Source of the DNA: a virus | Length of the DNA stretch: 34,604 nucleotides | Direction: 5' to 3' (one strand) | Virus record (IMG/VR): IMGVR_UViG_3300022540_000049 | Span: 1 to 34,604 of that record | Shown: one piece after another, positions 25,205 through 34,604 of the stretch | Position numbering within the stretch: position 1 is the first letter of the stretch | Layout: each line of letters begins with the position of its first letter | Position numbers and translations under genes: made by a program | The notes under the pieces: model-generated | Database searches by the model: none | Told to the model about the DNA's origin: nothing | What the model saw: only the letters and a program-made list of their open reading frames with translations

Positions 25205-27172
25205 TTAATGGACATCACGCCATGTTTTACCCCACTTAGGGGTTCCTGTAACTGGTACTCTGATATTCAGAAACTTACCAGCCTCTTCAAACGCCTTCTT
25301 AGCCAACTCCTCTACAACATCCCTCTCATCTATAGGAACTTCTCCTTCTAATTCATCATGCATTATTATGATCTGCTGTGTTTCCATATCTCTCTCTCTT
25401 AACCACTTATCAAAGAATAGAGCAGCTACCTTAACCACAATACTACCTGTACTCTGAAAATATGCATTAACTAAACTATGTTCAGACCTAGTATTTATCC
25501 TCCTACCATCTATTCCTATTATGTACTGCTTCCCTGTACTCTTCCAGAAAGCTACAATAGCTTTCTTAAATCCATTAAGTGCTGTATTACCATTCCAGAA
25601 ATCATTGTATATCCTAGTAGCCTTAGCTGTAGAACAACCCAATGTATTAGCTAATCCCGGAATACCAGAACCATATGTAATAGCGTATTTTGGAGCTTTT
25701 GACTCCTCCCTAATAGCATCTAGTACCTTATACCTATGTTTATCCTTCTCCTCAAGAGGAGCCTTATCAACCTTATGGCTCTGATAAAAGGCTAACTCTT
25801 CCTCATTCATATAACCATTATTGAATGCTGTATTACTGTGTACATCTCCATCTATTAACTCATGTGCATAGGATTCTCCACCCTCATATGGCATACAGGA
25901 GTGAGCTTCCATTCTCGCTTCTAAACCATCCGCATCAACACCCATCATCAAGGTTCCCTCTGGTACAGTAAATAATTCTCGTATCTGTACATCAGAAGGC
26001 CACAGTCCTATATCTTTGGGCTTAGGTATATTAACTAGACCCCTATGTGTCATGCGACCTGTATTAGTACCATTGGTCATAGCACCTGCTTCTATCCGAC
26101 CATCACTTCTTACTAAATTTAGAAGACCTTTTAGTTCTCCTTTCTTATTAATATTGAATAACATCTGTGCTCTATGCTTTAGAACATTACGTCTAGATAC
26201 TAACTTACCTAACTCACCTCTAATAGTTGGATAGCTGCTCTCAGATAACTTAGGAGCACCCTTTGGTGTAAATTCATCAGGTATCCATCCCTGTGTTAAT
26301 AGGAAGTCCTTTACTTGTGCAGGACTATTTAAGTTTATTGGTTCATAAGAGAGTCTCGTAAACGGGCCACATACTGTTCCTGAGTTATGAAACCATTTTT
26401 GTACATTCGCCTGTAATACACCACCTTTTGTGAACGGCTCATCTTCGTAGCCTGCTCTCTTCTTTTCTCTGATAAGGCGGAGTGGCATACCTTTCTGCAA
26501 CTGTTCGGACACTTTGAACACTTCATTCCATATCTCCTCAGCTAAGTTATAAGCCCTATCCTCATCAAAGAGAACTCCCTTTCGTTCCTGTTCCCCTTGA
26601 AGTTTCGCAATACCATACTCTATTTTAATAGCTTGATCCCAAGAGTTCCCCTTATCTTCCCATGCTTTCTTTTCTTCTTGTAGTTTGTACCAAGTTTTTG
26701 TGCCTATTTGTACATCGTAGAAACATCTTTCAATCATCTCGTAAGAGAATTTATCCCACTCGTCATGTTGTACCTTACCCAGACCAACACGTTGTCCCCA
26801 AGCTTTTATAGAATGTAAACCACGGTCGGGGTTAAAAAGCTGACTTAGTATATAAGTACATTCAAAAGTCCCGGGTTCCCATTCGGGATCAATAAGCTTA
26901 CGAATTACTAACCTATCAAATTGACCAAAGTTATGATAACAAGTCTGTGTTTCTGATAATAACTTAAAGTGATTTTCTAATGTATCAAGAACAGAGAATT
27001 TATCTGTAACTTTCTCTACCCAATCCGTGAGTGTATCCCAACCGTACTCCTCTATGACAGTACTATGAAATGAAAAGTAATACATGTCTTCTTCTGTGTC
27101 ATAAGAAATATTTATCCAAATCTTGGTAGAATCAAATACTAAACCATCTGTCTCTAGGTCGCATATGTGCAT
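25205..27172 (-). CDS. Family A DNA polymerase with 3'-5' exonuclease
   Basis: A 655-residue replicative polymerase (T7 gp5 has 704). Exonuclease motifs: CDLETDGL at residues 4-11 (Asp, Glu), YHNFGQFD near 93-100, CFYDVQIG near 150-157. Polymerase motifs: TGRMTHRGLVNIP before motif A, VDADGLEARM near 411-420 (motif A), KAPKYAITYG near 485-496 (motif B: Lys-x3-Tyr-x3-Tyr-Gly) and HDELEGE near 604-610 (motif C). The residue matching E. coli Phe762 and T7 Tyr526 is Tyr. Start ATG 27172 follows AGGG and lies inside the end of the upstream HNH gene. There is no sign of an intein or intron inside. Confidence 0.95.
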   Translation of the reverse strand: MHICDLETDGLVFDSTKIWINISYDTEEDMYYFSFHSTVIEEYGWDTLTDWVEKVTDKFSVLDTLENHFKLLSETQTCYHNFGQFDRLVIRKLIDPEWEPGTFECTYILSQLFNPDRGLHSIKAWGQRVGLGKVQHDEWDKFSYEMIERCFYDVQIGTKTWYKLQEEKKAWEDKGNSWDQAIKIEYGIAKLQGEQERKGVLFDEDRAYNLAEEIWNEVFKVSEQLQKGMPLRLIREKKRAGYEDEPFTKGGVLQANVQKWFHNSGTVCGPFTRLSYEPINLNSPAQVKDFLLTQGWIPDEFTPKGAPKLSESSYPTIRGELGKLVSRRNVLKHRAQMLFNINKKGELKGLLNLVRSDGRIEAGAMTNGTNTGRMTHRGLVNIPKPKDIGLWPSDVQIRELFTVPEGTLMMGVDADGLEARMEAHSCMPYEGGESYAHELIDGDVHSNTAFNNGYMNEEELAFYQSHKVDKAPLEEKDKHRYKVLDAIREESKAPKYAITYGSGIPGLANTLGCSTAKATRIYNDFWNGNTALNGFKKAIVAFWKSTGKQYIIGIDGRRINTRSEHSLVNAYFQSTGSIVVKVAALFFDKWLRERDMETQQIIIMHDELEGEVPIDERDVVEELAKKAFEEAGKFLNIRVPVTGTPKWGKTWRDVH

Positions 27173-27642
27173 GACACCCTCCCGTGGTTAGGGTGAAATT
27201 TAAGAGAATTTTCTAATGACTTCCTAAAACAAATAGCATCAAATTGATTATCAAATCTTTTACCAATAGTTTTATTGTTAGAGCCTATTTGAGATATCCA
27301 TCTATTCCTATACTTACACCACCTAACTCCAAGTATCCCAGAAGTATTAGTTATAGGTATCTTACAGTTTTTGGCGTTATCACTATTAGATACATCCCTT
27401 AAGTTATCAAACACATTATCACTACGAACACCGTTCTTATGATCTATTTTATTCTTAGGGAAAGTACCAGTAACATATAACCATGCTAATATGTGTAGAC
27501 CATATTTAGTTCCATCAATATCTGTCCGAATGTACCCATTAGTTTCTGTCCATCCGACTTTTCGTGTAGAACGGAGTCGTGTAAACACACCGGTATCAGG
27601 GTCGTAGTCTAACAATTCTTTTAATCTTTCTTGTGTTAGCAT
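27154..27642 (-). CDS. HNH homing endonuclease with AP2-like DNA-binding domain
   Basis: A 162-residue protein. Residues 45-95 have the HNH_3 core: HILAWLYVTGTFPKNKIDH, then NGVRSDNVFDNLRDVSNSDN. The C-terminal part (about 103-155), SGILGVRWCKYRNRWISQIG, resembles the AP2 domain often fused to phage HNH enzymes. ATG 27642 is chosen over an in-frame GTG two codons earlier because GAGGAG is correctly spaced to it. It overlaps the polymerase start by 19 bases and the preceding small ORF stop by one base. Confidence 0.82.
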   Translation of the reverse strand: MLTQERLKELLDYDPDTGVFTRLRSTRKVGWTETNGYIRTDIDGTKYGLHILAWLYVTGTFPKNKIDHKNGVRSDNVFDNLRDVSNSDNAKNCKIPITNTSGILGVRWCKYRNRWISQIGSNNKTIGKRFDNQFDAICFRKSLENSLKFHPNHGRVSCTYAT

Positions 27643-27770
27643 CACTTCTCCTCTTTATCTATACTATCATCTATACCATGTTTATATTTACGTATCAAGT
27701 ACACAACCATATCATGTACTCCAATTACAACTAGGAATATACCTACATATAGAGCGTAATCTTGGAACAT
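27642..27770 (-). CDS. Tiny single-span membrane protein
   Basis: A 42-residue ORF: MFQDYALYVGIFLVVIGVHD is mostly a hydrophobic span, followed by a basic stretch LIRKYKHG and an acidic end. The ATG at 27770 has AGGAG eight bases upstream, inside the end of the previous gene, and its stop overlaps the HNH ATG (TGATG). Exact fit in the 127-base gap supports it as a real gene. Function unknown; tiny membrane peptides in early regions can be host-directed. Confidence 0.6.
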   Translation of the reverse strand: MFQDYALYVGIFLVVIGVHDMVVYLIRKYKHGIDDSIDKEEK

Positions 27771-28045: not shown

Positions 28046-29692
28046 TCAATACCCCTTCTGTTTTGGTTCCAAATAATCTCCCGTGGATCGATCAAAGAAC
28101 ACCTCAAATGAACCACTATTACCAAATGCTCTATCCTCTAATAGTACAAAGGTAGATGTATTCCTTAATACAGGATCTTCCTCTAACTTATTTCTCTGAA
28201 TTCCAATGAAGTAATAAGCCGCTCTCATCATTGCTCTACTACCAGTAAACTGATTACTATGTACTTGTCCACCTTCCTCATGAGGACGGCCATTCTGTGG
28301 AGCTTTCAAATGAGCAAAGATCATATAGAAGAAACCCAAGTCCTTAGCCATTGTACTTATCTCATCAGCTATACGGTCTAATTCAGTATTTGCTGCACTA
28401 GAATCCATACCAGCTGTTAATCTAGTTAATGGGTCTATAATAATATCCTCACATCCCTCTACTAATACAGCATGTCTTATAGCTACCTTAAGTGTGTCCC
28501 AAGACGTGGCACCATAACTATCATACAGAACTACACCAGACCTAGCTGCATTAACTCCATCTATCAGCTCCTCCTGAGTAAAATCACCATCAGGTATATG
28601 AAATTGCTTATGCTTAATCTTACCAGCTATCTTACGTATAGTCATTGCTGGTTTCTCTTCTAACTTGAATACAGCTATCTTACCTTTCTCTACCTGAGTT
28701 ACATGGTGTACTATCTGATTAACAGCCTCACTCTTGCCTATCTTAACACCAGCCCCAAAGTATGCACCCTCTCCTAAGCGTCTACCATATGTCTTCTTAG
28801 TCAATGTAGGCCAAGGCCATGATTTACCCCATGTAGGCATTGCTGTAGCTTCTTCAAAGATATCATCTACTGTGATGAATCCTTCTGGTGCGTATGGTTG
28901 CGGCTGGAAGAAAGCATTAATAAATTCCTTCTGCTTACCTTTCTTGAGCATATCATTAGCATCTTTCTCAGTAGTAGTAACCATAAGAGCTTTAGCTCCA
29001 ACCAACTTGGCAATTTCTTCTCCAACTTTCTTACCTGCATCATCTTTATCCGTATATATCAGTACTTCATCAAAGGAAGAGACAAAATCTATGTTATCAG
29101 ATACAGAGGTAGCCTTATCTCCATGTATTAAGCTTACTACATTAGGTACAAAGTCAGGGTATTTAGCCCATAGCATCTGACATGCAGCTGCCATATCTTC
29201 ATAACCCTCTGTTATAAGCAGTTTCTTCCCACCAGGCTGACATTGTGCCTGACCGAAAAGTTCAGGTTTCTTACCTTTAATAGAACCCACCCAATAAAAG
29301 GATTTAGGTAAAAGTCTCTTCTTATAGGCAATTATTTTACCTTCTTTAGTTACAGGGCAAAAATACGCCTTTTCTTCACCTGTTTTAGAGCTATATTCTA
29401 CCCTAGTCCCATAGTGTGATGCTACCTTTTCAGATATACCTCTCCCTTTAAGAGCAGTTGTTGGGAGCTTATCTATTCCTTTTATTTCACTAGTGTTAAT
29501 AGCCCTATCCTCTGCTTCTACTAACGCCTTAATGTTCCCGACACCCTCCTTATAGGGCCTAACTGATATATGGTGTTCTTTTTTAGGGCAATACTTACCG
29601 CCATCGTCAAATTCTAATAAATGATTTCCAGCACTATCATGGCCATTTTCTCTACACGCAGGACACGGATGATCTTTTATAATTTTTCCCAT
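28046..29692 (-). CDS. Primase-helicase (T7 gp4 type)
   Basis: A 548-residue bifunctional replication protein (T7 gp4A has 566). Zinc-binding region: CPAC at 10-13, Cys35 and His40/41, so the second half is C-x4-H rather than CxxC. TOPRIM primase motifs: LLITEGYEDMAAA near 160 and IYTDKDDAGKK near 214. Helicase: GAGVKIGKS near 309-317 (Walker A), DIIIDPLTRLTAG near 415 (Walker B), with GRPHEEGGQVHSNQFTGSRA nearer the end. ATG 29692 is preferred to an upstream GTG because AAGGGG lies eight bases before it. It overlaps the upstream HNH gene by 16 bases. Confidence 0.93.
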   Translation of the reverse strand: MGKIIKDHPCPACRENGHDSAGNHLLEFDDGGKYCPKKEHHISVRPYKEGVGNIKALVEAEDRAINTSEIKGIDKLPTTALKGRGISEKVASHYGTRVEYSSKTGEEKAYFCPVTKEGKIIAYKKRLLPKSFYWVGSIKGKKPELFGQAQCQPGGKKLLITEGYEDMAAACQMLWAKYPDFVPNVVSLIHGDKATSVSDNIDFVSSFDEVLIYTDKDDAGKKVGEEIAKLVGAKALMVTTTEKDANDMLKKGKQKEFINAFFQPQPYAPEGFITVDDIFEEATAMPTWGKSWPWPTLTKKTYGRRLGEGAYFGAGVKIGKSEAVNQIVHHVTQVEKGKIAVFKLEEKPAMTIRKIAGKIKHKQFHIPDGDFTQEELIDGVNAARSGVVLYDSYGATSWDTLKVAIRHAVLVEGCEDIIIDPLTRLTAGMDSSAANTELDRIADEISTMAKDLGFFYMIFAHLKAPQNGRPHEEGGQVHSNQFTGSRAMMRAAYYFIGIQRNKLEEDPVLRNTSTFVLLEDRAFGNSGSFEVFFDRSTGDYLEPKQKGY

Positions 29693-30150
29693 ACTTTCCA
29701 CCCCTTGTGAGTTTGTTGTTTGTTATTAAGAACCCTCCACATAGCAGCTTGATCTAGATCATTTTCTCTACAAAATCTCTTAAGATTAAATATCTCCATA
29801 TAATCTTTATCTGGGGGAAGAACAATATACCACCTAGCTGCCCTCTTTTCATTATTGTATTGAGAATCACACCATTCTAAATTACTTTTAAAGTTATTAG
29901 CTTTTACTTCATCTTTGTGATGAATTTGTGTGTCTCCATATCCTTTAACTAGAAAGGCTTTTCCTACCAACTGGTGGACACCATACTGCATTTGAACACC
30001 ATAAATAGATAGAGAAGCACGAAGATACCCATCTTTATCTGTTTTCAGTTTTAGTATACGTTCTCTACTATGTAATGATTTTACTCTACCCCAATCAGAT
30101 ATTTGGTATTTTCCTTGGTACCCATCTATATCTTTCCAAATTTCATTCAT
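29677..30150 (-). CDS. NUMOD4-HNH homing endonuclease
   Basis: A 157-residue homing-type endonuclease. Residues 1-25, MNEIWKDIDGYQGKYQISDW, are a NUMOD4 DNA-binding motif. About 62-105 is HNH: VHQLVGKAFLVKGYGDTQIH, then HKDEVKANNFKSNLEWC. The C-terminus (about 118-157), MEIFNLKRFCRENDLDQAAM with THKGWKVWEK, resembles a NUMOD1-like recognition helix. ATG 30150 is taken as the start; a TTG three codons earlier is in frame. It overlaps the ligase gene end by eight bases and the primase start by 16, so it sits exactly between two core genes. Confidence 0.85.
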   Translation of the reverse strand: MNEIWKDIDGYQGKYQISDWGRVKSLHSRERILKLKTDKDGYLRASLSIYGVQMQYGVHQLVGKAFLVKGYGDTQIHHKDEVKANNFKSNLEWCDSQYNNEKRAARWYIVLPPDKDYMEIFNLKRFCRENDLDQAAMWRVLNNKQQTHKGWKVWEKL

Positions 30151-30787
30151 TCTTATCAAACCTCACTCTCTTAAACGCAGGATGCTTCATCTTACCACCC
30201 TTAGTCCAACCCTCATGCTCTACCTCAATTATAGTGCCTATAGGGGTGTCTAGGAGCTCCTTACGCTGCTTATCATCAAATCCTGTACCTACCTTACCTA
30301 AGTCTGTTATAAATGCACCTAGTAGGCCCTCAATACGCTTAGTACCCATCTGAATACCAGTTATAGCCACATCTGTAGTATCCTTTGGTTTTACCTTAAT
30401 CCATTTATCACCTTGACGTAGTACTAATCCCTCATCACCATTCTCAACAATTGCATCTAACCAGAAGTAGATAGTCCCAGCATTTGGATTTTCCAGATAC
30501 CCTAAACGAAGACGAGCATCTACTGGGTCTAAACTGTAAGCTTCATCTTGCTCAATTAACTTACCTTCCTGTGTTCTTACCCTTGATACAGTTGTATTCC
30601 AATCATCAACAAATATCTCATAATCACCATCAGCTAAACCCTCTAGGTTATATAGTGGCTTATTAGCCCGACTAGTGGCAACACCATCTTTAATAAAAGC
30701 CCTAACACCATCTCTCTTTATAGTAAGTTCCCAAGTTCCCTTAAGATCCTTACCATCCCAAGGTTTGGGTTTATTGTAATCTGCCAT
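30143..30787 (-). CDS. Very compact ATP-dependent DNA ligase
   Basis: A 214-residue ligase that would seal nicks with ATP. Motif I is TIKRDGVRAF with catalytic Lys24; SRANKPLYNL (39-48) follows. Motif III is YEIFV (Glu57), IIIa YFWLD (Phe108), IV DEGLVLR (Glu119) and V WIKVKPK (Lys131, Lys133). The OB-fold part runs from about 140 to 214 (IEGLLGAFI, then GTIIEVEHEGW). T7 ligase has 359 residues, the Chlorella virus enzyme 298; here the part between motifs III and IIIa is shortened. ATG 30787 is chosen because GGAG is seven bases upstream; a longer frame exists. All needed motifs are present. Confidence 0.88.
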   Translation of the reverse strand: MADYNKPKPWDGKDLKGTWELTIKRDGVRAFIKDGVATSRANKPLYNLEGLADGDYEIFVDDWNTTVSRVRTQEGKLIEQDEAYSLDPVDARLRLGYLENPNAGTIYFWLDAIVENGDEGLVLRQGDKWIKVKPKDTTDVAITGIQMGTKRIEGLLGAFITDLGKVGTGFDDKQRKELLDTPIGTIIEVEHEGWTKGGKMKHPAFKRVRFDKNE

Positions 30788-31680: not shown

Positions 31681-31867
31681 TCCAATTATCCTCTGGTTCA
31701 GGAACCATTCTGTCGTCCTTCCTACGTTCTGGCTTATCAAAATTAAGCTCCATTGTATTATCACTATCATCTATCTCAGATATACAATAAGAGCACATCT
31801 CCTCTTCCTTATATTCTTCCTCTACTGGGTTAATTTGACATTTAGAACATATCATAATAGTATTCAT
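31658..31867 (-). CDS. Small acidic zinc-ribbon-like protein
   Basis: A 69-residue protein with CSKC at about 8-11 and CSYC at about 25-28, which could bind one zinc ion, and a highly acidic tail (VPEPEDNWNEEDEDV). AGAGGA is eight bases before ATG 31867, inside the end of the previous gene. Zinc-ribbon plus acidic tail suggests a DNA- or protein-contact role; there is no closer clue. Confidence 0.6.
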   Translation of the reverse strand: MNTIMICSKCQINPVEEEYKEEEMCSYCISEIDDSDNTMELNFDKPERRKDDRMVPEPEDNWNEEDEDV

Positions 31868-32796
31868 AATAATCTTCCTCTAGCATATCCATTACCTGCA
31901 TTTAAAGAACCAATCGCTAACCCAGCTGCTTGCTGTTGCGCCTGTAATGGTGGAGGAGGCGGAGGAATTAACTCTGAATCTTGCCCTGCAAACTCTTTAG
32001 CTGGTCTCCATTCACCCGGCATTGAACCCTTTTTAACCCTCTTAGCACTCTGCTCTTTAAGAAGACGTTCATTCTCCATACTCTTCAACTCCTCAATAGC
32101 CATATACATCTGCCCTATCATAGCTAGTTTACTCTGACCATGCTTACGGCTCTTAGATATCTGGTAGAGTGCTGTAGATTGTACCTTAGAGGTACCTCTG
32201 TATAATGAACTCAACCACTTTCTACTACTATCCTTAGACATCATAGAGGGGTCTTCCTTCCAATTATCAGCGAATATATCTATGATATCCCTATCACAAA
32301 GAGTAGTAAAAGATCCGTCAGTTAAACAGTGCTCTGTGTCTATCCCATAAAGAGACCTACAATCACATACCTTATGTGCCCACTCTAGATACTTAGATTC
32401 TGTCATACCTCCTAACTCTCTTAGAGTTAAATAAGCCTCTACTATATAAGGATAATCATGTGCATATCTAAATAATGTAAAGATAAATAACATAGAGGCT
32501 GTAGATGCTTTAGAGGACACTGTAAGGCCATCCTCAAGTACTTCTTCTACAGTTGGTTTCCCAACTAAATACTCAGAGAGCCTAAGTTCATTAAGGAGTA
32601 AACCATAATACTTCTCTACCTTCTCTTTTGTAAGACCACCCCTCTCCCATTCAGGATAATAGGTAATACTTACAACCTCTCCTTCATCCTTGAAGTTACT
32701 AATATTAATTAATCTACCAAAACACGATTGGTGATTCATCTCATTTACACTACCATCCTTAAAATGTACATCATAGCTAACACGATAATCTGGCAT
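31864..32796 (-). CDS. Unidentified protein paired with the amidotransferase gene
   Basis: A 310-residue protein that I do not recognise. The first 240 residues look folded and mostly helical (for example SSKASTASMLFIFTLFRYAH and AYLTLRELGGMTESKYLEWA), with a cysteine-containing segment VCDCRSLYGIDTEHCL near 142-157. A charged coiled coil follows (about 228-255). The C-terminus has a run of seven prolines, then LQAQQQAAG and a glycine-rich tail ending GRGRLL. A perfect AGGAGG lies eight bases before its ATG, 12 bases after the amidotransferase stop. No catalytic motif is visible. Close linkage suggests a shared pathway with the amidotransferase. Confidence 0.65.
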   Translation of the reverse strand: MPDYRVSYDVHFKDGSVNEMNHQSCFGRLINISNFKDEGEVVSITYYPEWERGGLTKEKVEKYYGLLLNELRLSEYLVGKPTVEEVLEDGLTVSSKASTASMLFIFTLFRYAHDYPYIVEAYLTLRELGGMTESKYLEWAHKVCDCRSLYGIDTEHCLTDGSFTTLCDRDIIDIFADNWKEDPSMMSKDSSRKWLSSLYRGTSKVQSTALYQISKSRKHGQSKLAMIGQMYMAIEELKSMENERLLKEQSAKRVKKGSMPGEWRPAKEFAGQDSELIPPPPPPLQAQQQAAGLAIGSLNAGNGYARGRLL

Positions 32797-32808: not shown

Positions 32809-34206
32809 CTAGTGTAGGTGTCGATAAGCAAACTCATCATCTTCATTTTCCTTAGTGCATGTAGGGCAAATAGGGTCATTATTATATGTCCAAGACATAC
32901 TCTCATCATCCTCTAATAACACATTACCACTACATTGAGCACACCCATGTTCAGTTAGTTTTAGGAACTTTTTTACCTCAATAGTGTCCCCATTAGGGCC
33001 TCTTACAAACTCTTTAGCAATATCATCATCTGCCTCGGTGAAACCATTCATATATGCATCCTGTACAGACCCATCATCAGTACACCACTTTACAAACTCA
33101 TCTAGGGTTAGATTGGTGTCTAAGGGATTCTCTACTACTACCTGATCTTTCTTCTTCTTACCATTTCTGATTATAAAATTCTTAACATCTACTGAGTACA
33201 CCATACCTATCTCTAGATCTGTATTACTAGCCCCATGAATCTTATATTCAGCATCATCACCATAAGCTGATACACAACTAAAATACCCCTTAGTATCCTT
33301 AGCATTATAGGGGTTCCAAGACATAGGAGATACATCAGTGTGTCCACCTACTGATAAACCCAGTTTCTCAAGCCCCTCAGACCTTACTCGTTGAGCGTGC
33401 TCCCATCCCCGCTTCTTTGGGTTTATATGTGTAATAGCTTTAACAGGAGCGATATACGGAGTGTATGTTTCTACCTCAGTCTTGACAACATCTGTTTCCA
33501 GATTCTTATCAAATTCATACAGAGTATCTACATCTAGGCTATGAATCTCTTTGATGATATATCCATTACGATTACCCAACCATGCTAACATACCATACTC
33601 ACTTGCAAAGATAATAGTATCACTATCCTTAATAGTGGCATAGTACAGAGGGCGTTCCTCATTACGAACCATAAACATCTTCTGTTTAGCCTGATCGTAC
33701 CACACCAAGGCATATGCTCCATCTAGCTTTTTAATAGTTTCTTCAGCACCATTCTCATTAATAGATGCACAAATAGCCTCACTGTCGACAGTGTAGGTTT
33801 CTTTAGTCTTCAAATTATTGTGCCATAATAATGTGCCATTATGTACTAATGAAATGTTGCCATGTTGGAAGGGGTGTGCTGCTGCTGCACTGACACCACC
33901 TTTAGTAGCCCAACGGTTATGCCCAACTATGAATCGGTAACTATAGATGGCTTTTAAGAACTTATGATACCCCTTTAGCTGTATAAAGTCTGGGCCTGTT
34001 ACATCCTTCTTATATATAAAAACATCATCAGGATCATTTCTTTTAACAGCTAATAATCCTGTACTATCATACCCACGAACAACACCACATAATAGTGCTT
34101 CTGATATAAAAGCACCTCGATTCTTATCGTTAAATGTAGTATTGTTATTAAATTCTCCAATTAAACCACAGATTTTCTCATCTCCTAGCCGTATAAATAC
34201 GGTCAT
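32809..34206 (-). CDS. Class II glutamine amidotransferase with C-terminal zinc ribbon
   Basis: A glutaminase-domain protein (465 residues from ATG 34206) that would release ammonia from glutamine. It has the Ntn-hydrolase set: CGLIGEF with catalytic Cys13, GHNRWATKGG, HPF, LVHNGTLLWHN, SEAI and LDGAYALVWYD. No PRPP-transferase, sugar-isomerase (SIS), asparagine-synthetase or QueC domain follows. The C-terminal half (about 240-465) is unfamiliar and ends with a CAQC...CPTC zinc ribbon. The catalytic Cys must become N-terminal. TTG 34209 and ATG 34206 lack a ribosome site, while AGGAG lies eight bases before ATC 34173, whose next codon is this Cys. So either ATC starts translation or a 12-residue leader is removed. 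Confidence 0.85.
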   Translation of the reverse strand: MTVFIRLGDEKICGLIGEFNNNTTFNDKNRGAFISEALLCGVVRGYDSTGLLAVKRNDPDDVFIYKKDVTGPDFIQLKGYHKFLKAIYSYRFIVGHNRWATKGGVSAAAAHPFQHGNISLVHNGTLLWHNNLKTKETYTVDSEAICASINENGAEETIKKLDGAYALVWYDQAKQKMFMVRNEERPLYYATIKDSDTIIFASEYGMLAWLGNRNGYIIKEIHSLDVDTLYEFDKNLETDVVKTEVETYTPYIAPVKAITHINPKKRGWEHAQRVRSEGLEKLGLSVGGHTDVSPMSWNPYNAKDTKGYFSCVSAYGDDAEYKIHGASNTDLEIGMVYSVDVKNFIIRNGKKKKDQVVVENPLDTNLTLDEFVKWCTDDGSVQDAYMNGFTEADDDIAKEFVRGPNGDTIEVKKFLKLTEHGCAQCSGNVLLEDDESMSWTYNNDPICPTCTKENEDDEFAYRHLH

Positions 34207-34218
34207 CAAGTTTATATT

Positions 34219-34604
34219 CTACCACTCATCATCTACATCTAGACCATCTACAATAACCTGTTGCCTTGCTATTTGAGGCTCTGGGATATTCCATACTGAA
34301 GCATCAAATCCCCTAACCCTACCAGTGCTACTCTTCTTCTTTTTACCTTTAAGACCCAGTTTCTCCTCAAATACTTTAGCGACTATACCACCATCCTCCT
34401 CACCAATACCACGATATGCTTCTAATCCCCTTAACTCTTGGAAGTGAATCATATCATCTACAGCTCGTACACTACGAGAGATGTCCTCTTGTAACCCAAT
34501 ATATATTAGTTTCTCATGGTGATCTGGGAATACCTCCTCTAGAAAGTCCACAGGATGCTTAGATGAGCACAGAGTTGCTAAATCCTCTACCTCAAAGTCA
34601 CCCT
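34219..34604 (-). CDS. Unidentified protein, 5' end beyond the window
   Basis: The frame is open to the right edge, so this is a partial gene; a GTG at 34551 is only an internal codon or possible start. About 127 C-terminal residues are visible: DFEVEDLATLCSSKHPVDFL, then EEVFPDHHEKLIYIGLQEDI, a lysine-rich patch GLKGKKKKS and the end VIVDGLDVDDEW. No motif is recognised. It ends nine bases before the first possible amidotransferase start, so it is probably in the same operon and perhaps the same pathway. Confidence 0.6.
   Translation of the reverse strand, partial: GDFEVEDLATLCSSKHPVDFLEEVFPDHHEKLIYIGLQEDISRSVRAVDDMIHFQELRGLEAYRGIGEEDGGIVAKVFEEKLGLKGKKKKSSTGRVRGFDASVWNIPEPQIARQQVIVDGLDVDDEW

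Follow-up and report, generated by a model that had tools for sequence, protein, structure and literature searches.

The amidotransferase gene and its start region

The DNA analyzed (34,604 nucleotides; hereafter, the window) spans positions 1-34,604 of a 34.6-kb phage record (IMG/VR record IMGVR_UViG_3300022540_000049), in which genes for a portal, a head protein, a DNA polymerase, a primase/helicase and a ligase are present. One minus-strand frame matches Pfam GATase_6 (4e-21, above cut-off) and PHROG 4736 (6e-76), and shares with phage relatives residues of catalytic type (C2, RG..STG, GHNR.AT, AHPF, HNG, DS). The cysteine following an ATC codon aligns with residue 1 of mature GlmS 1xff (profile position 2 being residue 1). 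By the Cys1 alignment, the domain match and the glutamine-site motifs, the predicted product is a class II (Ntn) glutamine amidotransferase. The features of the locus are as follows.

32809-34173, minus strand: class II glutamine amidotransferase gene, 454 codons from ATC, the stop being counted in the coordinates
34161-34181, minus strand: out-of-frame ATG opening a six-codon frame over the start (ATG AGA AAA TCT GTG GTT TAA)
34168-34170, minus strand: TGT, catalytic N-terminal Cys, invariant in alignment A1
34171-34173, minus strand: ATC (AUC), proposed start codon; relatives have only ATG, ATT, ATC, TTG or GTG at this position
34182-34186, minus strand: Shine-Dalgarno (SD) sequence AGGAG, 8 bases from AUC
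34189-34202, minus strand: hairpin CCGUA-UUUA-UACGG, 5 bp, two bases 5' of the SD AGGAG
34204-34209, minus strand: in-frame TTG (34209-34207) and ATG (34206-34204), without SD, probably unused

Upon re-reading of the minus strand, the coordinates given in a preliminary description of this DNA for TTG, ATG, AGGAG, ATC, Cys and ATG 34181 were all correct. The six-codon frame reported there from ATG 34181 was found again, and ends with TAA; this ATG is unlikely to be used, because it abuts the SD without spacing. The next in-frame ATG, GTG or TTG 3' of ATC is codon 121, and the whole domain can thus be made only from ATC or from the TTG and ATG at -12 and -11. An open leader of 15 codons is unremarkable taken alone, and the case rests on the relatives. 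No Rfam match at the gathering score was found in the window. The folding of the whole 76-base region is no better than that of shuffled sequences, just the local stem being notable.

The genes flanking the amidotransferase (31864-32796 and 34219-34602, both minus strand) have no Pfam match, and for the 31864-32796 gene only a weak PHROG match was found, its function being unknown. In annotated relatives the amidotransferase gene is accompanied by amidoligase, ATP-grasp or COOH-NH2 ligase genes; given the lack of Pfam matches and the single weak PHROG match at the flanks, such partners are not recognisable beside the window gene. For this gene set the literature, as cited in PMC10580990, suggests a cell-wall or peptide modification by which superinfection is prevented in phiEco32. 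Two homing-type endonuclease genes reside on the minus strand of the window (27154-27645 and 29677-30159), one matching HNH_3 (3e-13), the other NUMOD4 (3e-16) with HNH; they adjoin the polymerase and primase/helicase genes.

Codons preceding the catalytic cysteine in relatives

Relatives were collected from annotated phages, three alignment-based scans of IMG/VR and one scan of bacterial genomes. A search for related loci with the single window protein as query returned zero relatives, while alignment queries succeeded; when searched for at the DNA level, close relatives of the window were not found. Removal of near-duplicates left a viral set of 157 distinct genes. The codon preceding Cys is ATG in 113, ATT in 25, ATC in 10, TTG in 8 and GTG in one of them; ATA, CTG or ordinary internal codons were found in none of the 157. 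A codon lying within a leader would vary freely, and the restriction to these five codons therefore marks a start position. ATT and ATC occur at this position also in isolated phages of E. coli, Pseudomonas, Klebsiella and Aeromonas. In bacteria, the control motif ATG-TGY-GGN-ATH-GTN-GGN-GC (MCGIVGA) was found in 158 out of 274 genomes of one class, and its variant having ATH instead of ATG in 0/274.

The preliminary description had left three options for the window gene: translation from AUC, removal of a leader, or a wrong base. According to the second, translation would start at ATG 34206 or TTG 34209, and a leader of 11-12 residues (12 in the preliminary description) would be cleaved before Cys as in PurF and glutamate synthase precursors. 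Such a leader could be encoded in the window, whose reading frame stays open after the stop at 34219 and contains both TTG and ATG. It is impossible in 27 of the 34 main-set AUU/AUC genes, in which no ATG, GTG or TTG is found from the in-frame upstream stop to the codon. PurF and glutamate synthase are, like the amidotransferase, Ntn-type enzymes needing an N-terminal Cys; they feature a propeptide, whereas in phage amidotransferases a leader is not conserved and mostly impossible. Bacterial PurF-like relatives (L369, L371) do carry non-start codons before Cys, and propeptides hence occur in the wider superfamily.

Three genes (L024, L194 and L055) have the box AGGAGATGAGAAA in common with the window. 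The window box CTAGGAGATGAGAAA is found identical before ATT in L055, and is common to L024 from T onward and to L194 from A onward, the stems of these genes being different. Stops lie at -9, -5 and -19 codons in L024, L194 and L055, with no canonical in-frame start between stop and codon; a PurF-type leader that is conserved and has a separate ribosome-binding site is thus not common to these three genes and the window. In the window, ATG 34206 is not preceded by an SD, and the hairpin comes just after it. Cleavage of a leader is, on these grounds, very unlikely. In contrast, the AUC start gains from the relatives, which have start codons only at this position, most of those with ATT or ATC having no room for a leader.

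In phiEco32, an in-frame TAG is found two codons upstream of ATT, and downstream no canonical start occurs before codon 114. The ATT of the amidotransferase is the sole start other than ATG, GTG or TTG among 75 phiEco32 genes checked. An amber read-through leader (MKGFTLQVD*K-ICG) was considered for this phage, and dropped because found only in phiEco32-like phages and BUCT695.

The third option, one base wrong or newly mutated in the window contig (ATC for ATG) and an ordinary AUG start, may be weighed on the same counts. Whether relatives have ATG before Cys, as the preliminary description suggested checking, has a split answer, ATG being found in 72% and ATT or ATC in 22%. The window is covered by a single contig, and close relatives were searched for and not found; an error is thus conceivable for one base of one contig. 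It is unnecessary as an explanation, since ATT or ATC is found at this codon in 35 distinct genomes, 34 of them other than the window and isolated phages included. Single cases may differ: L254 has ATT, a poor SD and a sister with ATG, and its ATT may be a recent mutation.

A hairpin abutting the Shine-Dalgarno sequence

The hairpin at 34202-34189 had been overlooked in the preliminary description, as had the family-wide extent of ATT and ATC starts. Similar structures were scored in relatives as perfect stems of at least 5 pairs, at least 2 of them G-C, directly 5' of the SD; the criterion was set after the sequences had been seen, and the AUG group and shuffled sequences served as a guard. 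Abutting hairpins were found in 21/34 AUU/AUC, 2/102 AUG and 0/9 UUG/GUG genes (Fisher p = 8e-14). When the upstream regions of AUU/AUC genes are shuffled, the mean count is 1.6, the maximum 6. Between hairpin and SD are 0-2 bases, and the spacing between SD and codon is 8 in 22/34 AUU/AUC relatives. The window has the hairpin that marks AUU/AUC genes and is rare among AUG genes, which further argues against a wrong or newly mutated base; this option is extremely improbable.

Stem sequences vary while pairing is kept. The covariation score of six aligned members is 0.84 (vs. 0.32 in shuffles), a value reached in 0/500 shuffles and by none of the slid registers, all of which score lower. Since L209 and L030 are in a shifted register in A4/A5, the covariation count rests mainly on five sequences and on the group statistics. 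Two loops recur, GUU (six) and UUUA (five). An exact scan of all viral contigs for AGGAGATGAGAAAATH returned 105 stretches, mostly by chance; in four genes, those of L055, L024, L194 and the window, the sequence has a hairpin next to it and a start of the amidotransferase type. A scan for hairpin, SD and AUU/AUC together in all the sequence searched yielded essentially amidotransferases only, hits in short frames or within larger ones aside, and the element is thus not general in these phages.

Two loci carry variants of the start region. In L227 (IMG/VR 3300008050_000183), at 1750-2020, a 70-codon frame of unknown family opens with the arrangement hairpin-SD-ATC-TGT-GGA-TTA-GTA-GGT-GTT, and an intact amidotransferase restarts at TTG 2001 with the same seven codons; the start region was either duplicated or captured by an insertion. 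L358 (upstream of 2001) is a further ATT gene, where the hairpin GTGTTG-ACAT-CAACAC precedes AAAGGGGATGAGTAA-ATT and an in-frame TAA is found right before ATT. L358 was left out of the hairpin statistics.

Recurrence of AUU/AUC starts and hairpins

A tree was built from 145 proteins, the first residue being left out. The AUU/AUC state changes 24 times on this tree, at least 15 of the changes falling on well-supported branches. Across 15 independent tree pairs, hairpin and codon change together about 9.5 times and in opposition 0.1 times (median p about 0.004). A close set is formed by PA11, which has TTG and no hairpin, and by FBPa8 (ATT) and L096 (ATC), both with hairpin; the proteins are nearly the same.

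The AUC may be the start and the hairpin have no part in initiation at a weak codon, being a hairpin for mRNA stability or processing, or the site of a regulatory protein, which travels with the start region. Thirteen of the 34 AUU/AUC genes do not satisfy the hairpin criterion, and the hairpin is therefore not required; the AUG gene L005 features a perfect one. GUU and UUUA reappear as loops on differing stems, as would be expected for a recognised hairpin. Against a travelling hairpin speak its fixed position relative to the SD, the way it tracks the codon in independent tree pairs, and the lack of it in TTG or ATG sisters, as in PA11 vs. FBPa8. Such an unrelated hairpin is possible, and somewhat doubtful.

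Expression and annotation of the frame

The depositors of both phiEco32 and SU10 placed the start of the amidotransferase at this ATT. The SU10 protein was identified by mass spectrometry with nine peptides, and is listed as an early product (PMC4281155); the detection of peptides indicates that the amidotransferase frame is expressed. According to the SU10 record (KM044272, L402:1834-3864), the protein starts at ATT and has 676 aa and a mass of 76.2 kDa. The mass tabulated in PMC4281155, 63.8 kDa, corresponds to a start at Met115. Residues 1-114, including CGIVLAGGNLSSTDLDVFN... at the N-terminus, were probably absent from the database searched in that work.

Annotation often begins downstream of the start position. 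FBPa8, Klyazma and BUCT695 proteins are annotated from codons 15, 18 and 12, and have lost the catalytic Cys. Annotated downstream TTG, GTG and ATG starts drop the Cys in L003 1510-1552, L006 1210-1261 and L007 1213-1246 (ON857932, OP125547, OL799327). Gene finders thus trim the catalytic Cys from many of these proteins, in several public phage records and, apparently, in one proteomics database.

Comparison with known non-canonical starts

Only a few bacterial genes are known to start at codons of the AUU/AUC type, infC accounting for most cases. In a positive control made up of bacterial infC genes, ATC, ATT and ATA starts were found, most of them eight bases from GGAG(G); phage amidotransferases are alike in combining an AUU or AUC start with a strong SD, mostly at the same distance. 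In the phage family, AUU or AUC lies at the start position without a usable canonical start in 27/34 genes, and a strong SD is near eight bases; in the window itself, TTG and ATG without SD remain upstream. The two systems differ in that infC encodes IF3, the amidotransferase being a phage metabolic gene, and in that AUA, the start of some infC genes, was never seen in amidotransferase relatives. The idea that infC leaders have the same hairpin found no support, nearly all the infC leaders checked being without an abutting one. IF3 represses AUU/AUC starts, including that of infC (PMC5472188).

Other non-canonical starts are the GUC of sigR in Streptomyces, and the AUU of cvfC1 and AUA of ccpN in S. 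aureus (PMC13009471, PMC5472188). In these genes, as in the amidotransferases, a weak start codon has been kept over evolution. Weak start codons (AUU, AUA) of S. aureus are paired with extended SD motifs which aid recognition, the yield being lower (PMC13009471), as AUU or AUC is paired with the SD in the amidotransferases. sigR, cvfC1 and ccpN are single genes conserved in one genus or clade, whereas the amidotransferase trait recurs 15-24 times in a widespread phage family, and has a covarying hairpin.

The amidotransferases of phiEco32 (gp83), LUZ24-like phages and Zobellviridae belong to the same family as the window gene and share its catalytic residues. No comment on their start codon or hairpin was found in the literature searched; the ATT start of phiEco32 gp83 may well have been remarked upon before, for example in the original phiEco32 paper. 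An AUU or AUC start as such is of a known kind. In the literature searched, subscription journals being mostly outside it, no description was found of a phage enzyme family in which AUU/AUC starts recur and are coupled to a covarying hairpin abutting the SD.

A weak start codon and its possible role

The window amidotransferase is very probably translated from AUC 34173-34171, by fMet, on a strong SD helped by the hairpin, with weak or IF3-sensitive initiation as in infC. The start position is strongly supported by the comparison of relatives, from which its recurrence and the association of hairpin and codon also emerge. We infer decoding by fMet, removal of Met, a role for the hairpin and sensitivity to IF3. 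In this scheme, 30S subunits would bind the strong SD AGGAG eight bases from AUC, and the initiator fMet-tRNA would be accepted at AUU or AUC despite the mismatch at the third base; deformylation and removal of Met would then expose the catalytic Cys, just as after AUG.

The strong SD at eight bases and the abutting stem-loop would compensate for the weak codon. The hairpin probably helps, and could do so by stacking on the helix formed by SD and anti-SD, by keeping it free or by blocking a competing structure; the recurrent loops GUU and UUUA may be recognised by a protein or other factor. Expression would be low or conditional and sensitive to the fidelity of initiation, as for infC, the part of IF3 being proposed by analogy with infC and sigR (PMC5472188). 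A low or delayed dose of the enzyme is a plausible reason for the weak start. More tentatively, these phages may carry a dedicated start element, a covarying stem-loop which abuts the SD eight bases before AUU or AUC and has been gained and lost together with the codon repeatedly in one family, the hairpin being needed for efficient use of AUU/AUC through coaxial stacking or a phage or host factor.

AUU and AUC starts in phage amidotransferases suggest that this means of control over a phage protein is recurrent and has been overlooked. The natural series at hand, one enzyme with AUG or AUU/AUC, with and without hairpin, suits the study of upstream structure and IF3 at weak codons. As AUU or AUC is used by 22% of the members of this widespread family of phage enzymes, repeatedly and together with an RNA structure that matches, the choice of the start codon looks selected and regulated.
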